Assembly: GCF_032854445.1 (NCBI RefSeq) | Contig: NC_088301.1 | Coordinates: 57,984,512-58,048,511 of the forward strand | From: Liolophura sinensis | Lineage: Eukaryota > Mollusca > Polyplacophora > Chitonida > Chitonidae | DNA length: 64,000 bases | Direction of reading: 5' to 3' | The notes under the pieces: generated by a model | Databases searched by the model: none | What the model was told of the DNA's origin: nothing | Seen by the model: only the letters and a program-made list of their open reading frames with translations | Position numbers and translations under genes: made by a program | Shown: positions 7,245 to 41,900 of the stretch, one piece after another | How the letters are laid out: each line of letters opens with the position of its first letter | How positions within the stretch are numbered: position 1 is the first letter of the stretch

Positions 7245-7935
7245 GTTGCAACAGTACTGGTAACATCACTAACTACTGTGATGTTGTTAAACAGTACTAT
7301 CAACTGTAATGTAACTGAACAGTGCTGCCTACTGTGATGTGGATAAACAGTACTGTATACTGTGGTTTAGCTAAACAGTGCTGACTACTGTGATGTGGAT
7401 AAACAGTACTGTATACTGTGGTTTAGCTAAACAGTACTGTCTACTGTGACGTAGATACACAGTACTGGCTATACTGTGATGTCGCTAAACAGTACTGGCT
7501 ATACTGTGACGTTGCTGTGCAGTACTGGCTATACTGCGATATTGCTAAACAGTAATGGTTATGCTGTGATGTTGCTGTACAGCACTGGGTATACTGTGAT
7601 GTTGCTAAACAGTACTTGCTATACCGTGATGTTGCTAAACAGTACTGGCTATACTGTGATGTTGCTGTATTTATTTTGTTTTACGCCGTACTCAAGAGTT
7701 TTTCACGGCGGCCAGCATTATGGTAAGGTGATGTTGCTGTATAGTACTGGCTATACTGTGATGTGACTAAACAGCACTGGCTGTACTTTGATGTTGCTAA
7801 ACAGTACTGGCTATACCTTGATATTGCTGTACAGTACGGGCTACACTGTTATGTTGCTAAAGGGTACTGGCTATACTGTTATGTTGCTGTACAGTACTGG
7901 CCATACTGTGATGTTGCTAAACTGTGGTGTAGATA
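7245..7935. repeat. 30-bp minisatellite
   Basis: Tandem array of a unit close to AAACAGTACTGGCTATACTG followed by TGATGTTGCT (30 bp), diverged at the edges and most regular from about 7460 to 7920. Because 30 is divisible by three, one + strand frame (7476-7766) stays open as a degenerate ten-residue repeat (S-T-G-Y-T-V-M-L-L). I read this as a by-product of unit length, not a gene. The array is interrupted by a SINE-tail fragment at about 7668-7727. Confidence 0.85.
7668..7727 (-). mobile_element. 5'-truncated SINE tail inside the minisatellite
   Basis: Read on the - strand, the sequence matches the 3' part of the SINE at 17012-17285: a GCTGGCCGCCGT block, then CTTGAGTACGGCGTAAAAC and an AAATAAAT-like end. 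It is flanked on both sides by TGATGTTGCTGTAT, which could be a target-site duplication or simply two adjacent repeat units. Confidence 0.75.
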
Positions 7936-16600: not shown

Positions 16601-19600
16601 CGTTGGGGCATGTAAGGTGTCCTCCTCAGGTTTACATACGACATTCCTTAGCCGCTTTGTGTTTGCATCCGACGACTCCTTCAGGGCCCTGGGGCCTTAG
16701 CTTTGGAGCAAACACCGCTTTAGAGGCGGGATGAACTCTACAGCTTTGCATATGCCTTCCGTAAAACGCGTGCATCTTTAAGACGGTTTATAACATAAGT
16801 GGACAAAATAAATGCAATAATCAAGACATTTTATGGATAAAACATGTTAGCCATATACTTGAAGTGACCCACCCATGATCTCTTTAAAATCTTCTTGCAT
16901 TGGAATGTGATGTTTCTGTGTTTTCCTAATTCAGCGGTCTTGTTACTTTCATGTAAGATTTACTTCAAACTTAAACATGTAGTTCGAGTTATAATAGTGA
17001 AAAAATTATCCGGGGCCTCCGTAATCGAAGAGTTGGCATGCCAGCGCGGGGCAATGATCCAGGAGCCTGCCACCAATGCGGTCGCTCTCTGTTCAAGTCC
17101 AGCTCATGCTGGCTTCCTGTATGACCGTACGTGGGAAGGTCTGGCAGCAACCTGCGGATAATCGTGGCTTTTCCCCGGGTTTTCTTCCACCAAAATGCTA
17201 GCCGCCGTCGTATGAGTGAAATATTCTTGAGTACGGCATAAAACACCAGTCAAATAAATAAATAAATAAATAAATAAATAAATACTTCTTGTTTAACTTT
17301 TATACAGTCTTAAGTCACTTTCACCAATGGTGATATAATCAGTACTCATGTAATAAAAAACATAGTGTTGGCTGTTTCTCTTTTGATATGTAAGTAAAAA
17401 TATTTAGACAAAGATAAATAAAGCTATACTTTGTAGCCTCGTTTTAGTTCTATGTGATGTCCTCATTGTACATGTAGTTTAGATTTATGTACTGTTTTAT
17501 AATTTTACTCTGTATGGATTTCTCATAGTGAATACATTTGCACATGACCAGTTGTAGCTACAACGATGACACAGGCGCGGTTGGCTTTACGATCCTGGTA
17601 AACAACTGACGCCAGCTCGGGATCTAATATTAAACAAATCTCCTCCATTCTAACACAACTCAGTGCAGTGACTTCTTCATATTTATATGTCTGAGAGAAT
17701 CCTTTGCTTACAAAGCGCCTAGTGTCAATACTGACTGTGGACGGATATGTTCTGGCATGATCATTGTTACATAATGGTGGATGTCCGACTTTCGTGTGTT
17801 TGCAGGATTTATTATCTACATCGGGGAATAAATACGAATATGTGCCTTTGTTGACACAGTTTGGGATTTGATTCATTATTCTGGAGAGAGCTCCATACTA
17901 ATGAAGAGCATTGTATACGGCGTGTACATTCATTCCTTTAAATCCTTGTGTAACGTATATAAGGCTTGATTGTGTAAACAATACGTTAGTCTGGGTTAAA
18001 CTGTGAATGTTTAGTGTGCTCAGCATTTAGTTGTTGTATTTTACATGTTATCGTGAATATGTGTACAAATTTTCAGCGCCTAATACAAATGGACGTACAG
18101 TATGAAGAGTAAAACCAGACCTTACACGATAGTATAGTAGTTAGCAAATGGTCACACGTAACCGATGAAATTCAGCCTCTTGTCAGTTTACCTCATTTAC
18201 GGTTTTATACTAACTATTCATCTAAATGCTTAGATAGATGCAACTTATACGCCCCCTATCTCCTTAACTTGCGCAGAAGTAAGTAAAAATGTTAATATTA
18301 ATGACAGAGATTCACAGTCTGCCTGATGCTTCGTCTTGTGGGTGGCGACGACTCTCCCTAATGCTTCGTCTTGTGGGTGGCGACGACTCTCCCTGATGCG
18401 TTGTCTTGTGGGTCATGACGACTCTTCCTGATGCTTCGTCTTGTGGTCGCGACGACTCTGCCTGATGCTTCGTCTTGTGGGTCGTGACGACTTTGCCTGA
18501 TGTTTCGTCTTGTGGGTCGTGACGACTCTCCCTGATGCGTCGTCTTGTGGGTTGTGACGACTCTCCCTGATGCGTCGTCTTGTGGGTCGTGACGACTCTC
18601 CCTGATGCTTCGTCTTGTTGGTCATGACTTCTCTGCCTGATGCTTCGTCTTGTGGGTCGTGACGACTCTCCCTGATGCGTCGTCTTGTGGGTGGCGACGA
18701 CTCTCCCTAAAAGGAGACAATTAACCATTCATTAAGCACATAAACCTTATTAAGAGTAAAATGGTTAAATCACCAACCACTGTGGCTTTATTTTAATGTT
18801 TCCAGGAGATGACCGTGTGTAGACATCAGTACTGATGTTTTGTAAATAACATTGGAAACGACCCTTTGAAATGTATTATAACTATAGAGCGACATCATAT
18901 CGTACAAAAAGCATATCATACAAAAAAACTTCCTGTCACTGGATATGATTTTCCTTGCAGGGTTTTTCCTTTTATCGTTCGTGAAGGGAGAAGACTGCCC
19001 AGTGGATGCCGTAGTCAGAACTCAGAAGTGCATGTCCACTTTCTTAACTGTGAATTCGACACGCTCTATTGGGGCGCCGTTTTTCGACGTAAAAGATGTG
19101 AGCTCGTATTGCGAGTAAGTATCCAACCTGACTCTTCTAAGATCGACAGGTAAAATACTCTGTTGATGATACATTCTGACAGAAAGTTGTAGAAAGTTTT
19201 TCGATATGTTGAATCTATTCTAAGTTATAGGGCCTAAAACAGCGTTTTCTTGATTTCGTATCCTAACAAACATTTTAATACTCTTAACATGCAGTTAATA
19301 TCTTATTTTCAGATCATTTAGATTTTTTAAAATCTTTGAATTCTACGATTCATTTCAACCTTTCATGGTTTTAAGTCAGGAGGTTAGTTAGGTGGTTTGT
19401 TCGGGATGTATTCGGATTCCTTTGTATCCATAAACATCACTACCGTCATACAAGTGCAATAGTTTAGAGTACATGTAAACCAAACAAAATAAATAACTAC
19501 CTTTTTATATTTTTCTGACTACCTTTGCAAGCCATGTGCTGACAAAAAGTGACACTGTTATACAACCGTTATACCTTGTTTTCATCACAAATCCTTTCCA

Positions 19601-22600
19601 CTTAAATGACCTCGTTTGTCTTGTTTGTTACCATGGAAACATTACTTACAGGCTGTTAGTGAACGGAAATAAAAAAAAATGTCTGGCTTAACAGTAGAAG
19701 TTTTATATCTTCTTCACATAATACTAAAGAACGTCTAACCTATATAATTACAGGTTCCAGATACTTTCACACGAAAACACCATACGACTAGGAAAGATAA
19801 TTTTAAAGGGACTATTATGAGCTAACATGTGTATCATGGGTTAACATGCGCATTATGAGTTTACATGCGCATTATGGGTTAACATGCGCATTATGAATTT
19901 ACATGTGCGTTATGGGTTAACATGCGTGTTATGAGTTTACATGCGCATTATGGGTTAACATGCGCATTATGAGTTTACATGCGCATTATGGGTTAACATG
20001 CGTATTATGAGTTTACATGCGCATTATGGGTTAACATGCGTATTTATGGGTTAGCTCAAGCATTACGTGACACCCAACTGCAGCAAAAAAAAAATAATGT
20101 TAGGTCAGAAAAAATGACTGCACTGCTTGGTTAGGTTAGGCCCTAGCTGTACTGAATAAAACCGTAAATTCATCATAAAAGTAACTTGGTATTATTTTGT
20201 ATCTGCTCATCATAAAATATACTTGGTACATTAAGAGTGAATGATACGAAGCCTGTTGAATAATTTCATGCAAATGGCACGGCTACGAAACTCATGACAA
20301 AATACACAATTCATTATTTGTGGAGTGTACCCACCAAATATAAACACTATATAGTATAAACAGCTAAACCCAGAGTTGCGCCTACAGTGTGATATTTGGA
20401 AAAATGGTCACACCTGTGCGGTGAAAACAATTCTCTTGTCAGTTCCCCCAGTTAAGGTTTTATTTCAACTGTTTATGGACATGCAGATAAATGCTAAAAA
20501 CTAGGATCTTATACACCCCATAAAATGGCCAAAGTAGATTTATGTGAAAAAGCGCAGTGATGGTAATTGTAATTTATCACACGTAAGAATTATTGTAGTA
20601 CACGCTAGAATTACTCAAAATGTTGTATTGTCGATTCACATTTATTAAAGAATAGCATGGAAACAATGCCAAGGGACCATACCTCAGGGTGTTTATTCCA
20701 CCTAAGGAATGCTGGATTAGGCAGGAATGGATTATAAAAAAAAACTTAATCGCACAGGATAGAAGACAAAATTTATGGTGTTCAATTTTAAAGCCTGTGC
20801 ATTGCCAGTAAATATTTGGAACAGGAATAATAGGTTTTGTAGGCGTACGGTTTCTTTTACTCAATTCTGTATTCACCCCCATGCTGAGAAATTCATAACA
20901 GCCATAGTACCGTACTCTTGTAACTCTTGATGTTGAAAGCCTTTTACCAAACTGGCTTTACTGACTACTCCATGTTTATTTTGCAGGGACGGAAGCTTAC
21001 AGAACATGGTAACGTGTACAGAGGATCTTGTGCGAGAATGCGAAGGGTCCCAGGTCATGGAGACACTCTCTCTTATGGTAGATATTAAACAAATGAAGAA
21101 AGGAGTCACAGCCCTCTGCAAGAAAAGCGCCCGTAAGTTTCACAGTCAATCCCGTGCCCATATAAACGGTAAAGCCACGGATGAAAAAAATTCGGAGAAA
21201 CTTGTAGTGTATTTTAAGTCCTGTCTGATCGCCGAAACCCTTTGCATCAATGCATCTAGCATAGCGTGTGAATGTGCGTGTCTCCATATTTGGAACGCAT
21301 TCGGCAACAGCTTTGTTTGTTAATCTTTGTCACATTCAATGTATTTATGAATGCTGTTGACTATTTCTGAGTTCAACCAAACAATGTGTTTGACCAGCTT
21401 ATGATCACTCCTTTAATATTCATTTCTCTTTGACAAAATCAAATTTAGAATGCACAAATATGAGCTTCTCGACGTAGGTTCAAGCTTTTCATATCATATC
21501 ACTTCAAAATGAGATTTTATTTTTAGACAATCCAAGGTCGATGTATTTATGTACATTTCGCACCACTATGATATATACAAACCCTCATAAACATACACAA
21601 GAGTCTGTAAGAATAATATAATTAGAAGATTCCGAATGTAACTGAGACAGAATATATAGGGTATAATATAAAAGACCATGGCACAGAGAGCAAAAGTAGA
21701 ACAGCGACGACAGTGTGATAGCTGGTAAATGATCACACCTATAACTGGTGAAATACGGCTACAGCATAGAGAGCAAAACCAGAGCACCGAGAACAGTGTG
21801 AAAGTCGTACAGTACAGAACCAGAGCAGCGACGACACTCCGATAAGCGTAGAGTACAGAGAGCAAAACCAGAGCAGACGTGAGTGTGATAGCTGGCAAAT
21901 GATGACACGTCAACTTACCTCGGACAATGTTTGATTCAAACTGTTCATGTTTATGTCACACGTGACATTTGTAGATGAATTAATAACCATGAACGTAATA
22001 AGTATAGGCTGTTTTCATTAATATCTGTACAGACAGTCGGTGTGTTACAAGCATGGAAGGTGGGTTAGTTTCTGCAAGGTGCAAAAAAGGATAACACGCT
22101 GGTTTTTGGTATCATCACTCACAGGTATACACATGCTGGTACTCCTACATCAGCCAGACTATCGAGCATAACACCAGGATATCGTTGTGTGAGATGAAGC
22201 TGCAATCAAGAAAACACTGCTAGATTTATAACTTTCAAAATATTTGGATAAACAGGGGTAGGGGGAGGATGATATTATATGATTTTTGATTTTTGCTTTC
22301 GCAAGTCTTGAATTCATCTTCTTCGCACTTTTAAACTATTTGCATAGCTAACTTGTCACGAGTTTTATGGCTGGTTGCAATTCAGTGTCCTCGATTCCAA
22401 GGTGAAACACACAAATGCAGCTGTGGGAAGTTTTTTATGTTCTTGTTTTTTGCTCCTGGACCTGACGAACAATCTTGAGGCCAGAGAGTGAGCCACGTCG
22501 CCGACAAGCCCGACCAGGGGGATTGTAGTAATCGGTTAATACACAGAAGCTTCGGGCAGCCCACTATACATCGTCTCTGGCCTTCCACTGCCAGGCCTCT

Positions 22601-33753: not shown

Positions 33754-35911
33754 CTGAAATCATGGACGAAGGAAATACTCTGTTACAGCTCCTTAAAGAT
33801 TCATGATAATTTGTAAGTTTAAAAAGTAGTTTATTTGGTGCCCTAGAATAATTTACTTATGTAATGTCAATGTTTCGAGAGTGATGCTGCTTTGCAAACC
33901 AATCAAGCTTCGAAGGGCCTTGTCTGTCTTACATTATTTAGGGTCTAAGTGAGTGGTGTACGTAGGAATGTGGAGCTGGAATGAGTACTCTTGAAGCTCA
34001 GTCGTGGAGCTAAGTGACCAAACTTTGGTAGTGTCTGGGGCAGTAAATGTACAAGTCACTGACAAAGCCGGAGGCCAAACCAAGGTGAGCTGGCTAGTGA
34101 TCTGAAATGAAACCCTCACCACTCGGCACAAATTGCTCATGTTTTCAATAGAACACTACAGTTTTGATACACTTCTTGCCTAACAAGTTTGTAAGTCTTT
34201 TAAAGTGTATGTCACAACGAATCCACTGACTGCTTCTCTCTCAAAAATCACATGGTTCACATCACATTATAACATGATAGATCCACACACGAACCATACC
34301 AAACAAGAGTTCAGGTTGACACAACATACCCACCAATAAATGCATTTGTTTGAAATGTATAAAAGAATACCAGCAGTATTGTGGTGAGTCTAACCCCTGA
34401 GGGGAATCCTCATGGGTGTTGATGACAGGTATATTGTTACCATGATTATCATGACAATCAAGCAAGCTGAAGTGGACAAATGTCCACCAAATATTAAAAC
34501 TCTGCGTGGAAAACAGTTGGAGTTGTAGCCCATTTCTATTTATATAGTATATATAAGGAAAATGGCTATCTGGTTACCATAACAACTGCGGGAAATGGAT
34601 AAATGTGAGTCGTGACACATCGTCATCCGTGTATCTATGTACCCGCTAAAAATTAAAACTCTGCGTGGAAAACAGTTGGAGTTGTTGAAATCGTATCTAT
34701 CTAGGGACCATCCCCATAAATCGTTTGCATTCATCTAGTGGGTTTTTCTTTTTCTCCGAAAAACTGAACTCTATCTACATCCTTTGGTCGGCCCAGTAGC
34801 AATTACGCTTAACCATCACTGTGTATACCGGCGATCGGCAAAGAAAGTCAACACAAGAAACAAATCCAAAGAAACAACAACAGTGGTTCCACTCGTGAAA
34901 CCTTTCCAAAAGAAAGCTAAGGCCTTGTACTTACATGTTTTCACAAAATATTCCTGAGTCTACAGACACCCAAAATATAGGCCTAAATATGTGGCCGGAC
35001 CATGTATGCCAGAAACTCCTACACGTCTAGGCTGCACCGTACAAGTACACTTGTGCCAGGACAAGCTCCTGCAAGCTTTTGTCTGAATTCTCAAATATTT
35101 GAATTATGCGTCTTGTTTTGCATTTGTTTTCTTAATAATTTCTGAAGTAAATACCTGTACCAATTGTCGTTCAGTCTGTTACATAATAATAAGTTAAATA
35201 ATATTTGACGAACAGATGTCCTCCCTATGAGCCTCTTCACCATCCCTATTTTTGAGAATGGGCATTGATGTGATTCCCCTGCTAAGTTAGGCATGTGGCC
35301 AGTAAAGGGAAGCCTATTCTATATTTGGGCACAATTGTTTCACCCTCGTAGGCATTCTTCAAAAGCTTTAGTCACATGGAAGGCAGCATTATGCAGTGAT
35401 GAAACCACAATTCTTTGACCTCCAATCGCATGTAGACCCCATACAAGAGAGGCTATGGAGACAAGCGGTTGGTAAATTCTAGACACGCCGTGTGGAGAGT
35501 TCCCTGTAATTCATGCTACATAAATAACTCACTGGGTACATAACATTTTGTTCAACAAGCAAACTACAAGGTGACGAAGCTAAAAAAAACAAAAAAAAAA
35601 CAAAAAGAAAACAAACACAGTGTCTAATTTAATTTTACTGAGTTCTCAATGTGCCATGTGGAAAATATTTAGACGGTTAATACAGCTGGGCGGTTTCCTG
35701 ATAGTTTCTGATCACTGAAGCGTGTTGTCGTTGTCGACATTCCCTGCTGTGCTAGCGGAGCTTCTTCTCCAGGCCGGCTCCCACTTTGGCTGTTTCCAAT
35801 AATCCACTCAAAGGAAAAAAAAACGAACAAACTCAACATCCATCATTTGAGTGTTCATTCGTTTTATTCGTTCTAACTGAAGCAAACGATTTATGGGGAC
35901 GGTCCCTTATG

Positions 35912-35955
<44 letters not shown>

Positions 35956-38900
35956 AAACTCTATGAGATAAAGTGTTCGAGTTATAGCCCTGAAACCAAA
36001 TCATATCTATTTTTATAGTACGTATAAGGAAAATGGATATCTGGTTACCCTGACAACTGCAAAAAATTAACAAATGTGAGTTGCAACACATCGTCATATG
36101 TGTATCCATCAAAAATTAAAATTCTATGTGGAAAACTGTTCGAGTTATAGCCTAGACACGAAATCATATCTATTTATATAGTATACATAAGGAAATGGAT
36201 ATCTGTTAAACATGACAACCGCAGAAATGGACAAAAGTGAGTCGCGACACATCGTCATCTGTGTATGTATCCATCAAAAATTATAGCCTGGACACAGATA
36301 TGGATGGACAAAATCCCTATAATACAGTACGATATGCCTAAAGGCAGGTGGTGTATAAAAATCCCCTAAACGAAACAAATGTTGTACTTACCACTGGCAA
36401 TGAAAACACTGGATCCAGGGATCTAAAATCATTGTGGCACTTCCAAAACTTGATGTAGCCATCCTTCGACCCTGCTGAAGAAAATGTAAAAATTGAAGTA
36501 ATCAATATTAAAATTCTCACCTGAAATTCTAGGCTTACAACGAAATGCCCTCTGGCTAAAAACCATTGCATTTTAGGCAAGTACATTACTGGTGTTTTCC
36601 ATTATAATTAACAATGTTGCATAAGTCAATAAGCTTACTTTTGAACAATGTGCACTGTTGGCACAGAACTGCAGAACTTATAAGACTATATCATATATTT
36701 CTGGGTTAAAGCATCACTTTGGGGTCCTTAGAACACATTCGATAGGTAAAAGGTCAATAGTGTGTGTAATGGCTTCCATCCGTTTGAATAACAACCTCAT
36801 CCCCTGCACATTTCTGCAGTGAATTTTTGGTTAACATACATATGTTTCCCTACACAAGAAATAGTCTGACCTTCTCTTATAAGTATGAAGTCATCAACAA
36901 TAAAAACTGAATTCTGTTTTAAAGCAAACTTCTGTGTCATTTAGAGCTCTAGAATTTTAAGCAACTGTCTTCGTAACCATCCTTACTTGCTAAGTTTTTA
37001 TCTATGTTTGTTTACACATGGATATAAAATTTATTATGAGTTGTGAACAGTGGATTGTGTACTACCTGAAGCCAGCAGATCTGTTATCTGGGAATTGTGT
37101 ACTACCTGAAGCCAACAGATCTATGACCTGGGAATTGAGTACTACCTGAAGCCAGCAGATCTATGACCTGGGAATTGTGTACTACCTGAAGCCAGTGGAT
37201 TTGTAAACTGTGGTCTGGTACTACCTGAAAGCAGCAGATCTGTGAATTGGGAATTGTCTACTATTTCAAGCCAGTAGATCTGTTAACTGTGGTTTGTACT
37301 AGCCAGCCACATGTGTGACCTGGGAATTGAGTACTACCTGAAGCCAGCAAATCTATGACCTGGGAATTGTGCACTACCTGAAGACAGCAGATCTGTTATC
37401 TGGGAATTGTGTACAACCTTAAAGTCAGCAGATCTATGACCCTGGAAATTGTGTAGTACCCAAAGCCAACAGATCTGTGACCTGGGAATTGTGTACAACC
37501 TGAAGCCAGCAGATCTATGACCTGGGAATTGTGTACAACCTGAAGCCAGTAGATCTATGGCCTGGGAATTGTGTATTACCTGAAGTCAGCAGATCTATGA
37601 CCTGGGAATTGTGTACTACCTGAAGCCAGCAGAATCTGTGGCCTGGGAATTGTGTACTACCTGAAGCCATGATCCTCTATGATCTGTGGTCGTACTACCT
37701 GAAGGCAGCAGATCTGTGACCTGGGAATTGTGTACTATCTCAAGCCAAGTAGATCTGTGATCTGTGGTCGTACTACCCGAAGGCAGCAGATCTGTGATCA
37801 GGGAATTGTGTACAACCTGAAGCCAGTGACCTGCGAATTGTGTACAACCTGAAGCAGTAGATCTGTGATCTGTGGTCGTACTACCGAAGGCAAGCAGATC
37901 TGTGACGTGGGAATTGTGTACTACCTAAAACAGCAGATCTGTGACGTGGGAATTGCTGTACTACCTAATGTCAGAAGATCTATGATCTGGGAATTGAGTA
38001 CTACCTGAAGCCAGCAGATCTATGACCTGGGAATTGTGTACTACCTGAAGCCAGCAGATCTGTGGCCTGGGAATTGAGTACTACCTGAAGCCAGCAAATC
38101 TATGACCTGGGAATTGTGCACTACCTGAAGACAGCAGATCTGTTATCTGGGAATTGTGTACAACCTAAACTCAGCAGAATCTATGACCTGGGAATTGTGT
38201 AGTACCCAAAGCCAACAGATTTGTGACCTGGGAATGGTGTACAACCTGAAGCCAGCAGATCTATGACCTGGGAATTGTTGTACAACCTGAAGCCAGTAGA
38301 TCTATGGCCTGGAATTGTGTATTACCTGAAAGCCAGCAGATCTATGACCTGGGAATTGTGTACTACCTGAAGGCAGCAGATCTGTGACCTGGGAATTGTG
38401 TACTATCTCAAGCCAGTAGATCTGTGATCTGTGGTCGTACTACCCGAAGGCAGCAGATCTGTGATCTGGGAATTGTGTACAACCTGAAGCCAGTGACCTG
38501 CGAATTGTGTACAACCTGAAGCCAGTAGATCTGTGATCTGTGGTCGTACTACCCGAAGGCAGCAGATCTGTGACGTGGGAATTGTGTACTACCTAAAACA
38601 GCAGATCTATGACCTGCGAATTGTGTACAACCTGAAGCCAGTAGATCTGTGATCTGGTACTACCTGAAGACAACAGATCTGTGATCTGGGAATTGAGTAC
38701 TACCTGAAGCCAGCAGATCTATGACCTGGGAATTGTGTACTACCTGAAACCAGCAGATCTATGACCTGGGAATTGTGTACTACCTGAAACCAGCAGATCT
38801 ATGACCTGGGAATTGAGTACTACCTGAAGCCAGCAGATCTATGAACTGGGAATTGTGTACTACCTGAAGCCAGCAGATCTGTGACCTGGGAATTGTGTAC

Positions 38901-41900
38901 TACCTAATGTCAGAAGATCTATGATCTGGGAATTGAGTACTACCTGAAGCCAGCAAATCTATGACCTGGGAATTGTGTATTACCTGAAGCCAGCAGATCT
39001 GTGACCTGGGAATTGGGTACTACCTGAAGACAGCAGATCTATGACCTGGGAATTGAGTACTACCTGAAGCCAGCAGATCTGTGATCTGGGAATTGCGTAC
39101 AACCTGAAGCCAGTGACCTGCGAATTGTGTACATCCTGAAGCCAGTAGATCTGTGATCTGTGGTCGTACTACCCGAAGGCAGCAGATCTGTGACGTGGGA
39201 ATTGTGTACTACCTAAAACAGCAGATCTATGACCTGCGAATTGTGTACAACCTGAAGCCAGTAGATCTGTGATCTGGTACTACCTGAAGACAGCAGATCT
39301 GTGATCTGGGAATTGTGTACTACCTGAAGACAGTAGATCCGTGAACTGTGGATTGTGTACAACCTGGAGACAGCAGATCTGTTAACTGTGAACTGTGTAC
39401 TACCAGAAGACAGCAGACCTGTGAACTGTGGATTGTGCAATATCTGAAGACAGTAGATCTGTGACCTGGGAATTGAGTACTACCTGAAGCCACAAGATCT
39501 GTGAACTGGAGTGAACACACAGCTGTGATCCAGTTCTCCTGGGAGGCCCCACCAGGCTTAGACGGCTCCCCTGAGTGAGCGTTCTGGACACATATTAGAG
39601 GCTTCTTCTTCATCACACTCCATACACTCAGGGAACTACAAACAAACAGCAATCATGAATTCACTCCATTTGCTTACTTGTTTGAAAAGGCTTTAATGCT
39701 TCAAGGTTCCGTTATATCATGCACTGTATCTATCTCATCTAGAAAAAGGTCAATATACAGACTTCTGTCTAATTGCATGTATCCCCATGAGACTTAATTC
39801 ACAATTTCTGCCAATACAGTCCTTCATTTCACACAGTCAGAAATTTAAGTGCTATCAAGTATGATCTGAGTCCATGCACGTACATAAAATTCATCTGAAC
39901 AATCTTTCATTATATAATGTATGTTATTTTTTTAAATAAAGAATAATAAATAAATTTTATAAGAATAAAACAGTGCACATAATGACTCAAAACAACTAAT
40001 ATCTACAAAATTACTAATATCTTACAAATTTTCAATCATTTATTTATATGAATAAACTAATCTATCTAACTAATATGCTATTCATGAATTTACAATCTGC
40101 TTCACCCAACTAACTTACTTAGTTCTACTTACTTATCATCTGCTCCAGATATGAAATTATTCTCATTGATAAGGGACACACAGTCTACACTTCCCCTAAA
40201 AAATACCAACAACAATATAATATTCAATAAATCAGAAAGTGAGAACACCACATTTTCTCCTGGAAGAGCCATTCACAAAAGCCAAGTGCTGTCAGTGCAT
40301 GTATCCTTGTCATAAGTACTCTTACAACTTATAGTACGCATACTTGTACCTGTCCAATGGACTATAACTGAACTCAGCAAGAACAGATGAGTGAATGTGA
40401 AAAAGTGTACAGGATGGCTACTGCCTCAGTGAAGAAAATGCTAAAGGCTATGTTCACCTTCTGAAATACACAATCTCTCTTTTAATGAGAGTTCATCATT
40501 GGGTAAAAGTTCAAAGAATAAGTGAAAAAATTTAGAGCTCCTTTATTTGGAGTACTCTTGAAGCCCTTACCCATGACCAATAAACACAAGCTGGGACTCC
40601 TCGATCACCTTCCAGATTCTGATACTGTTATCTCGACCACCACAAGTCACGGCACGCTCCCGACTCAAACTGTCTATAGCTGTGATGCAGTACTGGTGAC
40701 CAAATCTTCAAGTAAGAAATGCAAGCGTTTAGGCCAAAAGTCAAACAATTACATGCACATAGTAACATTCACAAGTTTGTGGCCATGTTACAACAGGATA
40801 AACCATGTGACTGAGTGGTGTAATAGATCTTTGGTTTCAAAAAGACGAAAAAGTTACCTGTTAGCCTACAGAGCGGATAATGAAAAGTACTTACAAAGTT
40901 TCAACATAGGCCATTTCATCCAGGTTCCATATTTTCACAGATCTATCGTGTGACGCACTGAAGAGCTGGTGGGAACCTTTCCTGAAAACCAAGCCCTGCA
41001 GCAGCAAAACGTTAATTTCAGAGGTATTTAAATATTTCTCTAAAAATACTGCTATACCAACTATCCATCTATGAATGAAAATAAAAATTTACATACTTGA
41101 CAATTTTTGAGCAATATGAAGGCGAGGTGTCTTTACATTTTTTGTATGTATTCTATGTATTATTATGGCAACATGAGCCTATGGCATCAAACACACACCA
41201 CTGAAGTATCATAATGAAAACACCAGACATGACACCCCACCCAGTCACAATATACTGGCGCCGGACCAACCAGTATTGTTTCCTAGCTCTAATCTCTCAG
41301 AACTTAGTGATAAACAAAGCAGCCACATTTTTTAAAATTTTGGTATGGTTCAATCGGGTTTGATCCTATGTCTCCCGACTTTGAGGTGGACACTCTTACC
41401 ATTAGGCCACCAAAGTGGTTAGCTGCTCAAGAAACTAATATTCATACTCATTAATTTCAAATTTCTACATGAGTAACCAGTTTTCAAGATGAAGAGTTAC
41501 ATGTATGAATGGGATTAACCTCCAGCAACAAGGTTTAGCTTAATGGAATTGATGAAGAAAAGAAAAAGAATCACTCAGTGACATTTTCATACCTCATAAA
41601 ATACATGTTGATAAACTGCTGTTAACAGTCAAGCCAGGAAAACAGAAATATGCCAAAAGCCAAAGAAGAGGCAGAAAGATATTTCCCTCACATGTATCTC
41701 TGTGAGTGAAGACTTACGGAGACTGCATCCCTGTGGCCCCTAAATGAGTGAATTAGATCAAAGGTCTCAGGATTCCAGATGTGAATCAACTTGTTTCTAT
41801 CTCCAGAAGCCTGGAAACAAAATACATCCAACTTGAAGCCAGAATATTTCCGCCTTCCAAAACTTGTCAGTATGAAAGTTTACTGCAGTGGAAAATATTT

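Follow-up and report, generated by a model that had tools for sequence, protein, structure and literature searches.

Minisatellites that span exon-intron boundaries have been described in amphioxus under the name "mirages" (PMC3087553). They have been reported in the genes for Adh3, the globins BflGb6 and BflGb9, PGBD5 and troponin C and, in the parts of these papers that were accessible, do not seem to disturb normal splicing (PMC3087553, PMC3902484). We analysed a 64-kb window of the genome of the chiton Liolophura sinensis (assembly GCF_032854445.1, contig NC_088301.1, positions 57,984,512 to 58,048,511), the whole stretch of DNA to which all coordinates below refer unless a contig is named, and found a minisatellite of this type at the junction of exon 12 and intron 12 of the RRP9 gene. 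We consider it likely, with a probability of about 0.85, that this array was born by duplication of the RRP9 exon-intron junction, and that its extra copies are tolerated and nearly neutral.

Two other known systems are comparable. The human CBS gene carries a 31-bp variable number tandem repeat, c.1444_1467+7(16_21), with a unit of 24 nt of exon and 7 nt of intron in 16-21 copies (PMC2630376), located at exon 13-intron 13 (table in PMC1395315). According to its Human Genome Variation Society (HGVS) name it has the same layout of exon tail plus intron start as the RRP9 array; however, it is a known polymorphism and has fewer copies. Intron gain by tandem genomic duplication, as far as the available descriptions go, likewise duplicates a stretch with AG|GT, but it makes a new intron, whereas the RRP9 array multiplies the donor of an intron. 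No mollusc case was named among the hits listed by literature searches for mirages and other boundary repeats, for the gain of introns and for the birth of minisatellites, which mostly did not cover subscription papers; a paper on a haemocyanin intron of a gastropod is among the hits on intron gain. What is new here is the RRP9 array of a chiton and the recurrence of such junction arrays within one chiton genome.

The host gene lies on the minus strand, as do all features of the RRP9 locus described below. When its exons are translated, the best-known counterpart is recovered: human U3 small nucleolar RNA-interacting protein 2 (RRP9, U3-55K) is matched with an E-value of 1.3e-122, and human TDLVATGS aligns opposite chiton TDLVASGS. 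An earlier note on this DNA had named the gene as RRP9 with a matching vertebrate DLVATGS stretch, and this alignment bears it out; the exon and intron numbers used here follow that note, the list of RRP9 exons being incomplete. Exon 12 (39484..39635) is 152 nt long, and its last 26 nt (39509-39484) are what the exon contributes to the first unit of the repeat. Intron 12 (36472..39483) is 3012 nt long, with the authentic donor CAG|GTAGTAC at 39484/39483. Exon 13 (36392..36471) follows the acceptor TTCAGCAG|G and is joined in frame as DLVAS-G-SKDGYIKFW; across the join the chiton protein reads TDLVASGSKDG and the human protein TDLVATGSHSS. It should be noted that the exon 13 acceptor (36471-36479) is of the NAGNAG tandem type, and could yield DLVASAGSKDG besides DLVASGSKDG.

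The junction-spanning minisatellite occupies 37042..39509. Wrap-around alignment from 39509 to 37042 (array length 2.47 kb) resolved a unit of about 40 bp into 63 full units, including the first one, which overlaps the exon, and a 10-nt partial unit; Tandem Repeats Finder called the same array at 37054-39509 (40 bp, 63 copies, 78% matches). The first unit is the real splice junction, i.e., the last 26 nt of exon 12 followed by the first 14 nt of intron 12, so that the array begins at 39509, within the exon, and the outermost unit of the cluster is the authentic boundary. The tail of exon 12 is identical to the unit consensus at 23 of 26 nt, a score that was matched by none of 3,920 random tails drawn from the other loci sampled, with the same two final bases (p = 0.0003, the floor of this comparison). 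The CAGGTAGTA motif has 25 copies within the array region, against a single one in the remainder of the same strand of the window; this count, together with the Tandem Repeats Finder array, rules out a chance origin. The far end of the array (37042..37051) is a partial unit ending in GTTCACA, a 7-mer that is also present near the unit start in the exon; the point after this 7-mer at which the array breaks off is in register with the copy in the exon. Between the array and the exon 13 acceptor, about 570 nt of intron 12 remain outside the array. The earlier note had placed the feature at 37046-39635, a range that takes in the whole of exon 12, while the array proper ends at 39509; it was right about a 40-bp junction unit, though the shares are 26 and 14 bases rather than about 20 and 20.

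Position 5 of the unit carries the T of the exon in 9 of 64 units and G or A in the remainder. Besides the exon unit, the T is carried by units 3 to 5, by unit 18 and by four units among the final seven; thus, eight of nine carriers lie among the first five or the last seven units, and in the centre G or A prevails. Judged on this single unit position, the end units escaped homogenisation, as would be expected if the array grew from the junction and its centre was homogenised later.

We searched the genome for a second home of the array DNA. All 24 BLAST matches of the array fall at the RRP9 locus, as do 42 of 43 matches of a pattern search allowing up to 2 mismatches, and the one off-locus match (on C2) equals the yield of the backwards control (1). 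No other home was found genome-wide by a DNA search that passes over masked sequence and words of very high frequency and could therefore miss matches. An origin from a satellite was rejected on the basis of this concentration at one locus, and the check proposed earlier, a better fit of the unit to an unrelated satellite, turned up none. Because these searches gave no second place for the array in the genome and human RRP9 has a matching TDLVATGS, the data support growth of the array from the exon 12/intron 12 junction, in the direction from exon to repeat. Comparison with human RRP9 indicates that the coding part of the unit is ancestral. The derivation from the exon end proposed earlier is thus supported by the conserved coding stretch, the single-locus matches and the T at position 5 of end units. 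As to the first step, the GTTCACA 7-mer is a possible seed: the array may have arisen by slippage between two GTTCACA direct repeats 40 bp apart, one exonic and one intronic, and later unequal exchange or block duplication would have amplified the array and homogenised its centre.

Many units, but not all, carry splice signals. There are 22 exact copies of CTTCAGGTAGTAC, including the authentic one, and 45 copies within one mismatch; CAG|GT is kept in 40 of 63 full units. Donor strength was calculated as pairing with the 5' end of the U1 small nuclear RNA (snRNA; L001) encoded in the same genome. The authentic donor scores -8.9 kcal/mol, which ranks fourth among the ten RRP9 donors that were located and scored (the exon 4 donor was not found and is absent from the ten), and 24 GT sites downstream have U1 pairing equal to it. 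Sites of this strength number 9.8 per kb in the array, compared to 0.54 per kb on each strand outside it in the window. Since the intron starts with GTAGTAC and not GTAAGT, the pairing needs one bulged U1 nucleotide. Two statements of the earlier note have to be scaled down accordingly: CTTCAG|GTAGTAC is not present in nearly every unit, and the number of functional-looking donors is not about 60 but 24 that equal the authentic one by U1 pairing, plus weaker ones. The U1 snRNA genes themselves are arranged in tandem, with a unit of about 2 kb, at G000:C10:30033968-30140539 (L001, L002); among the 41 U1 matches listed, 34 are on C10, 4 on C627, 1 on C6 and 2 on C7, and one of the C10 matches falls below the family cut-off.

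The three donor copies nearest to the exon (39361..39483) are all altered, as seen from unit alignment and U1 pairing: the unit at 39469 has AT instead of GT, the unit at 39429 has CTG|GT (donor +80, -5.8 kcal/mol), and the unit at 39389 has GTT instead of GTA (donor +120, -7.3 kcal/mol). The first exact downstream CTTCAG|GTAGTAC (39317..39329) is also the first competitor of equal U1 pairing, 160 nt from the authentic donor, and its use would lead to a premature stop. We computed the reading frame for 51 downstream donor-like copies, and 50 of them lead to a premature stop; the only copy that keeps the frame open is +120, which would insert 40 residues. Coding use of the array was therefore rejected, with this one exception among the 51 copies, to which the expectation that a later donor would add array-coded residues is restricted.

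The RRP9 array shares with amphioxus mirages, as described in the accessible parts of the reports, a unit that lies over an exon-intron boundary, splice signals in many but not all units, and end units that escape homogenisation. It has the four mirage features that we tested, and is hence another case of a known structure; the direction and kind of the array, which had been regarded as unusual, are those of mirages, and several more examples are found in this genome (see below). The units of the Adh3 mirage, at 10-72 bp (PMC3087553, PMC3902484, seen in part), cover the RRP9 value of 40 bp, whereas two globin mirages have units of about 150-160 bp in few copies, compared to 63 full units in RRP9. 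Amphioxus is a chordate, and splicing and length instability have been examined in amphioxus mirages, whereas the RRP9 array is described here from the sequence of one assembly. According to the same partial sources, 5' as well as 3' boundaries can be affected in amphioxus.

How would splicing cope with such an array? All extra copies are intronic and would be removed together with intron 12. The spliceosome most likely picks the first donor, because it directly adjoins exon 12 and makes the normal 152-nt exon. Transcripts from most later donors would carry premature stops and would presumably be destroyed, so that leakage would cost a little output and add almost no new protein; the array may persist since it is nearly neutral. 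Tolerance of this kind is the most likely picture for the RRP9 array and agrees with the amphioxus reports.

Several points weigh against this interpretation. The U1 score of CAG|GTAGTAC relies on the bulged nucleotide, and neither modifications of U1 nor other factors enter the calculation. The 51 copies that were tested for reading frame are copies of one chosen motif, leaving out other GT sites of the array (CTG|GT at +80, CAG|GTC). The 7-bp GTTCACA could be a truncated last copy instead of the seed. Finally, the weakness of the first three copies is no evidence of selection against the nearest decoys, because it has a probability of 0.22 under random order.

A different explanation would be that the field of decoy donors is a regulatory device, which binds U1 and diverts part of the splicing to products with premature stops, thus tuning the output of RRP9, a ribosome biogenesis factor, or shields the long intron from early polyadenylation. 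The 24 downstream sites that match the authentic donor in U1 pairing, at about 9.8 versus 0.54 per kb and strand, and the premature stops after 50 of 51 donor-like copies would suit such a device. Conversely, similar arrays are found in several unrelated genes, which fits random birth, and the units drift freely, as CAG|GT is kept in only 40 of 63; we regard a regulatory role as improbable.

Intron gain, past or ongoing, in which the duplicated junction made, or is making, intron 12 or a new exon, as has been suggested for the amphioxus globins, appears less probable still. AG|GT is present in many units, this route was proposed in the amphioxus paper (PMC3087553, seen in part), and intron gain by tandem duplication is described in the literature that we could consult. 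However, an intron gained in this way is expected to have a copy of the duplicated unit at either end, and the roughly 570 nt that separate the array from the exon 13 acceptor show that intron 12 does not.

We give very little credence to the reverse direction, in which an unrelated satellite or transposon-derived repeat overwrote the exon end by gene conversion: the 23/26 identity of exon tail and unit makes conversion possible in principle, but the exon encodes the conserved TDLVASGS, the array has no other home that we could find, and at 3 sites the exon and the consensus of the array disagree. An assembly artefact, i.e., a repeat collapsed or inflated, can practically be dismissed, for although long tandem repeats are prone to mis-sizing and read coverage is 14x, the PacBio HiFi reads average 8,347 bp, exceeding the 2.47-kb array (both values from the accessible part of PMC11068029), and the units differ among themselves and are hence placeable.

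The architecture seen in RRP9 is found again in other genes of this genome. The pattern of three AGGTRAGT motifs gave 1485 matches genome-wide, compared to 644 for the backwards motif; counted by arrays among the matches listed (C1 up to 13.1 Mb, grouped manually), the contrast is 15 versus 9. A stricter pattern, CAGGTRAGT at 35-37 bp spacing, gave 78 matches versus 5 backwards, in 12 arrays. We read the upstream edge of each of these 15 + 12 = 27 arrays; both samples were picked by their consensus donors and do not estimate a genome-wide share. An open frame was judged to end at the first donor in 13 of 27 arrays, and the unit contained the tail of the neighbouring exon in 10 of these 13 (10/27, made up of 4 from the sample of 15 and 6 from that of 12), namely L003, L007, L009, L015, L018, L022, L023, L024, L026 and L027.

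The exons at these junction arrays belong to various families. Among them are ankyrin (L003, Pfam E-value 5e-10), a Branch glycosyltransferase (L007, 1.5e-6) and an Fe-hydrogenase-like protein (L015, 2.7e-13). The HEAT match of L009 (7.8e-4) does not reach the curated cut-off, and L009 also matches a "helicase-like protein" of the PDB at 3.8e-11; L026 matches SETD6 (PDB, 1.1e-5) and L023 matches ABCC3 (PDB, 5.2e-4), L022 being a near copy of L023. For L018 there is an NCBIfam deoC match at 0.0023, far below the whole-protein cut-off, with no PDB match and no useful Pfam match, and L024 and L027 have the exon-tail match without convincing protein-family support. One more donor array (L039, G000:C2:25321500-25324000), with a 43-bp unit and 27 of 27 exon nt, lies in a YjeF_N gene (1.7e-9); it was picked up by the acceptor pattern described below, and is in fact a donor array on the other strand. 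We take L009 to be BTAF1 or Mot1, L015 to be CIAO3 and L039 to be NAXE. The near-identical ABCC-like exons of L022 and L023 lie about 100 kb apart on opposite strands of G000:C3 and have the same junction minisatellite; because both carry it, the array is older than the duplication or was copied with it, and a comparison of copy numbers might help to date the array.

The exon-tail match is lacking in 17 of 27 donor arrays. In 14 of those 17 no exon at the first donor was judged worth testing; these 14 include L004, L019 and L029, whose open frames were not tested for exon-tail homology. In L008, L014 and L016 the open frame ends at the donor, yet the unit has at most 3 exon nt; L014 has 3, next to a fucosidase-like exon (2.7e-4, below cut-off), and no protein family was found for L008 and L016. 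As a control, we examined 14 of 17 listed arrays of the backwards motif and found no conserved exon at the array edge in the 20 of 67 open frames searched, which covered all 14 arrays. In one control array (L050) there is a P450 match (0.0019), but some 185 nt lie between its start and the edge of the array; another (L046) has one weak match (0.03). Given the positives in both samples (4/15 and 6/12) and a control without a conserved edge exon in the frames searched, junction arrays are a recurrent class in this genome. The other arrays of the window (7272-7922, 18318-18708, 19814-20053) have no evident edge exon junction by eye, their open frames not having been searched.

The acceptor motif TTTYCAGG, taken three times, gave 551 matches versus 122 in the control. 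We read 12 acceptor-array edges, and only L032 and perhaps L033 resemble acceptor junctions: in both (G000:C1) an open frame follows the acceptor at which the array ends, the frame of L032 being tetraspanin-like (Pfam E-value 0.0026, below the curated cut-off) and that of L033 without a family, suggesting that these are 3' splice-site versions of the junction minisatellite.

Are such arrays more numerous than random birth would produce? Counting minisatellites with a period of 15-70 and at least 4 copies, we found 5 in 80 kb (ten 8-kb samples) and 4 in the 64-kb window, i.e., approximately 62 per Mb, which extrapolates to roughly 38,000 in total, with a wide error. Under the assumption of about 200,000 donors in the genome, births placed randomly over junctions would give hundreds of junction arrays; random minisatellite birth may thus suffice for their number. 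An excess at junctions was not demonstrated, because the contrast shrinks when counted by arrays (15 versus 9) and random births also predict hundreds. No special junction mechanism is needed for the number of arrays, and none is excluded. A far-reaching version, in which minisatellites of chitons arise preferentially at splice junctions, mirage arrays occupy 5' and 3' sites by the hundreds, their U1-binding decoys measurably shape the splicing and output of hosts such as RRP9, and copy number is tunable, seems to us unlikely. The occurrence of several cases in a single mollusc suggests that, in animals rich in repeats, the birth of minisatellites generally leads to some at junctions, and each junction array is a natural experiment on how the spliceosome chooses one donor among many near-identical ones.

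Apart from the array, the segments 34483-34683 and 36002-36270 of the window share a sequence resembling a common dispersed repeat, with approximately 78% identity over about 150-170 bp (blastn).

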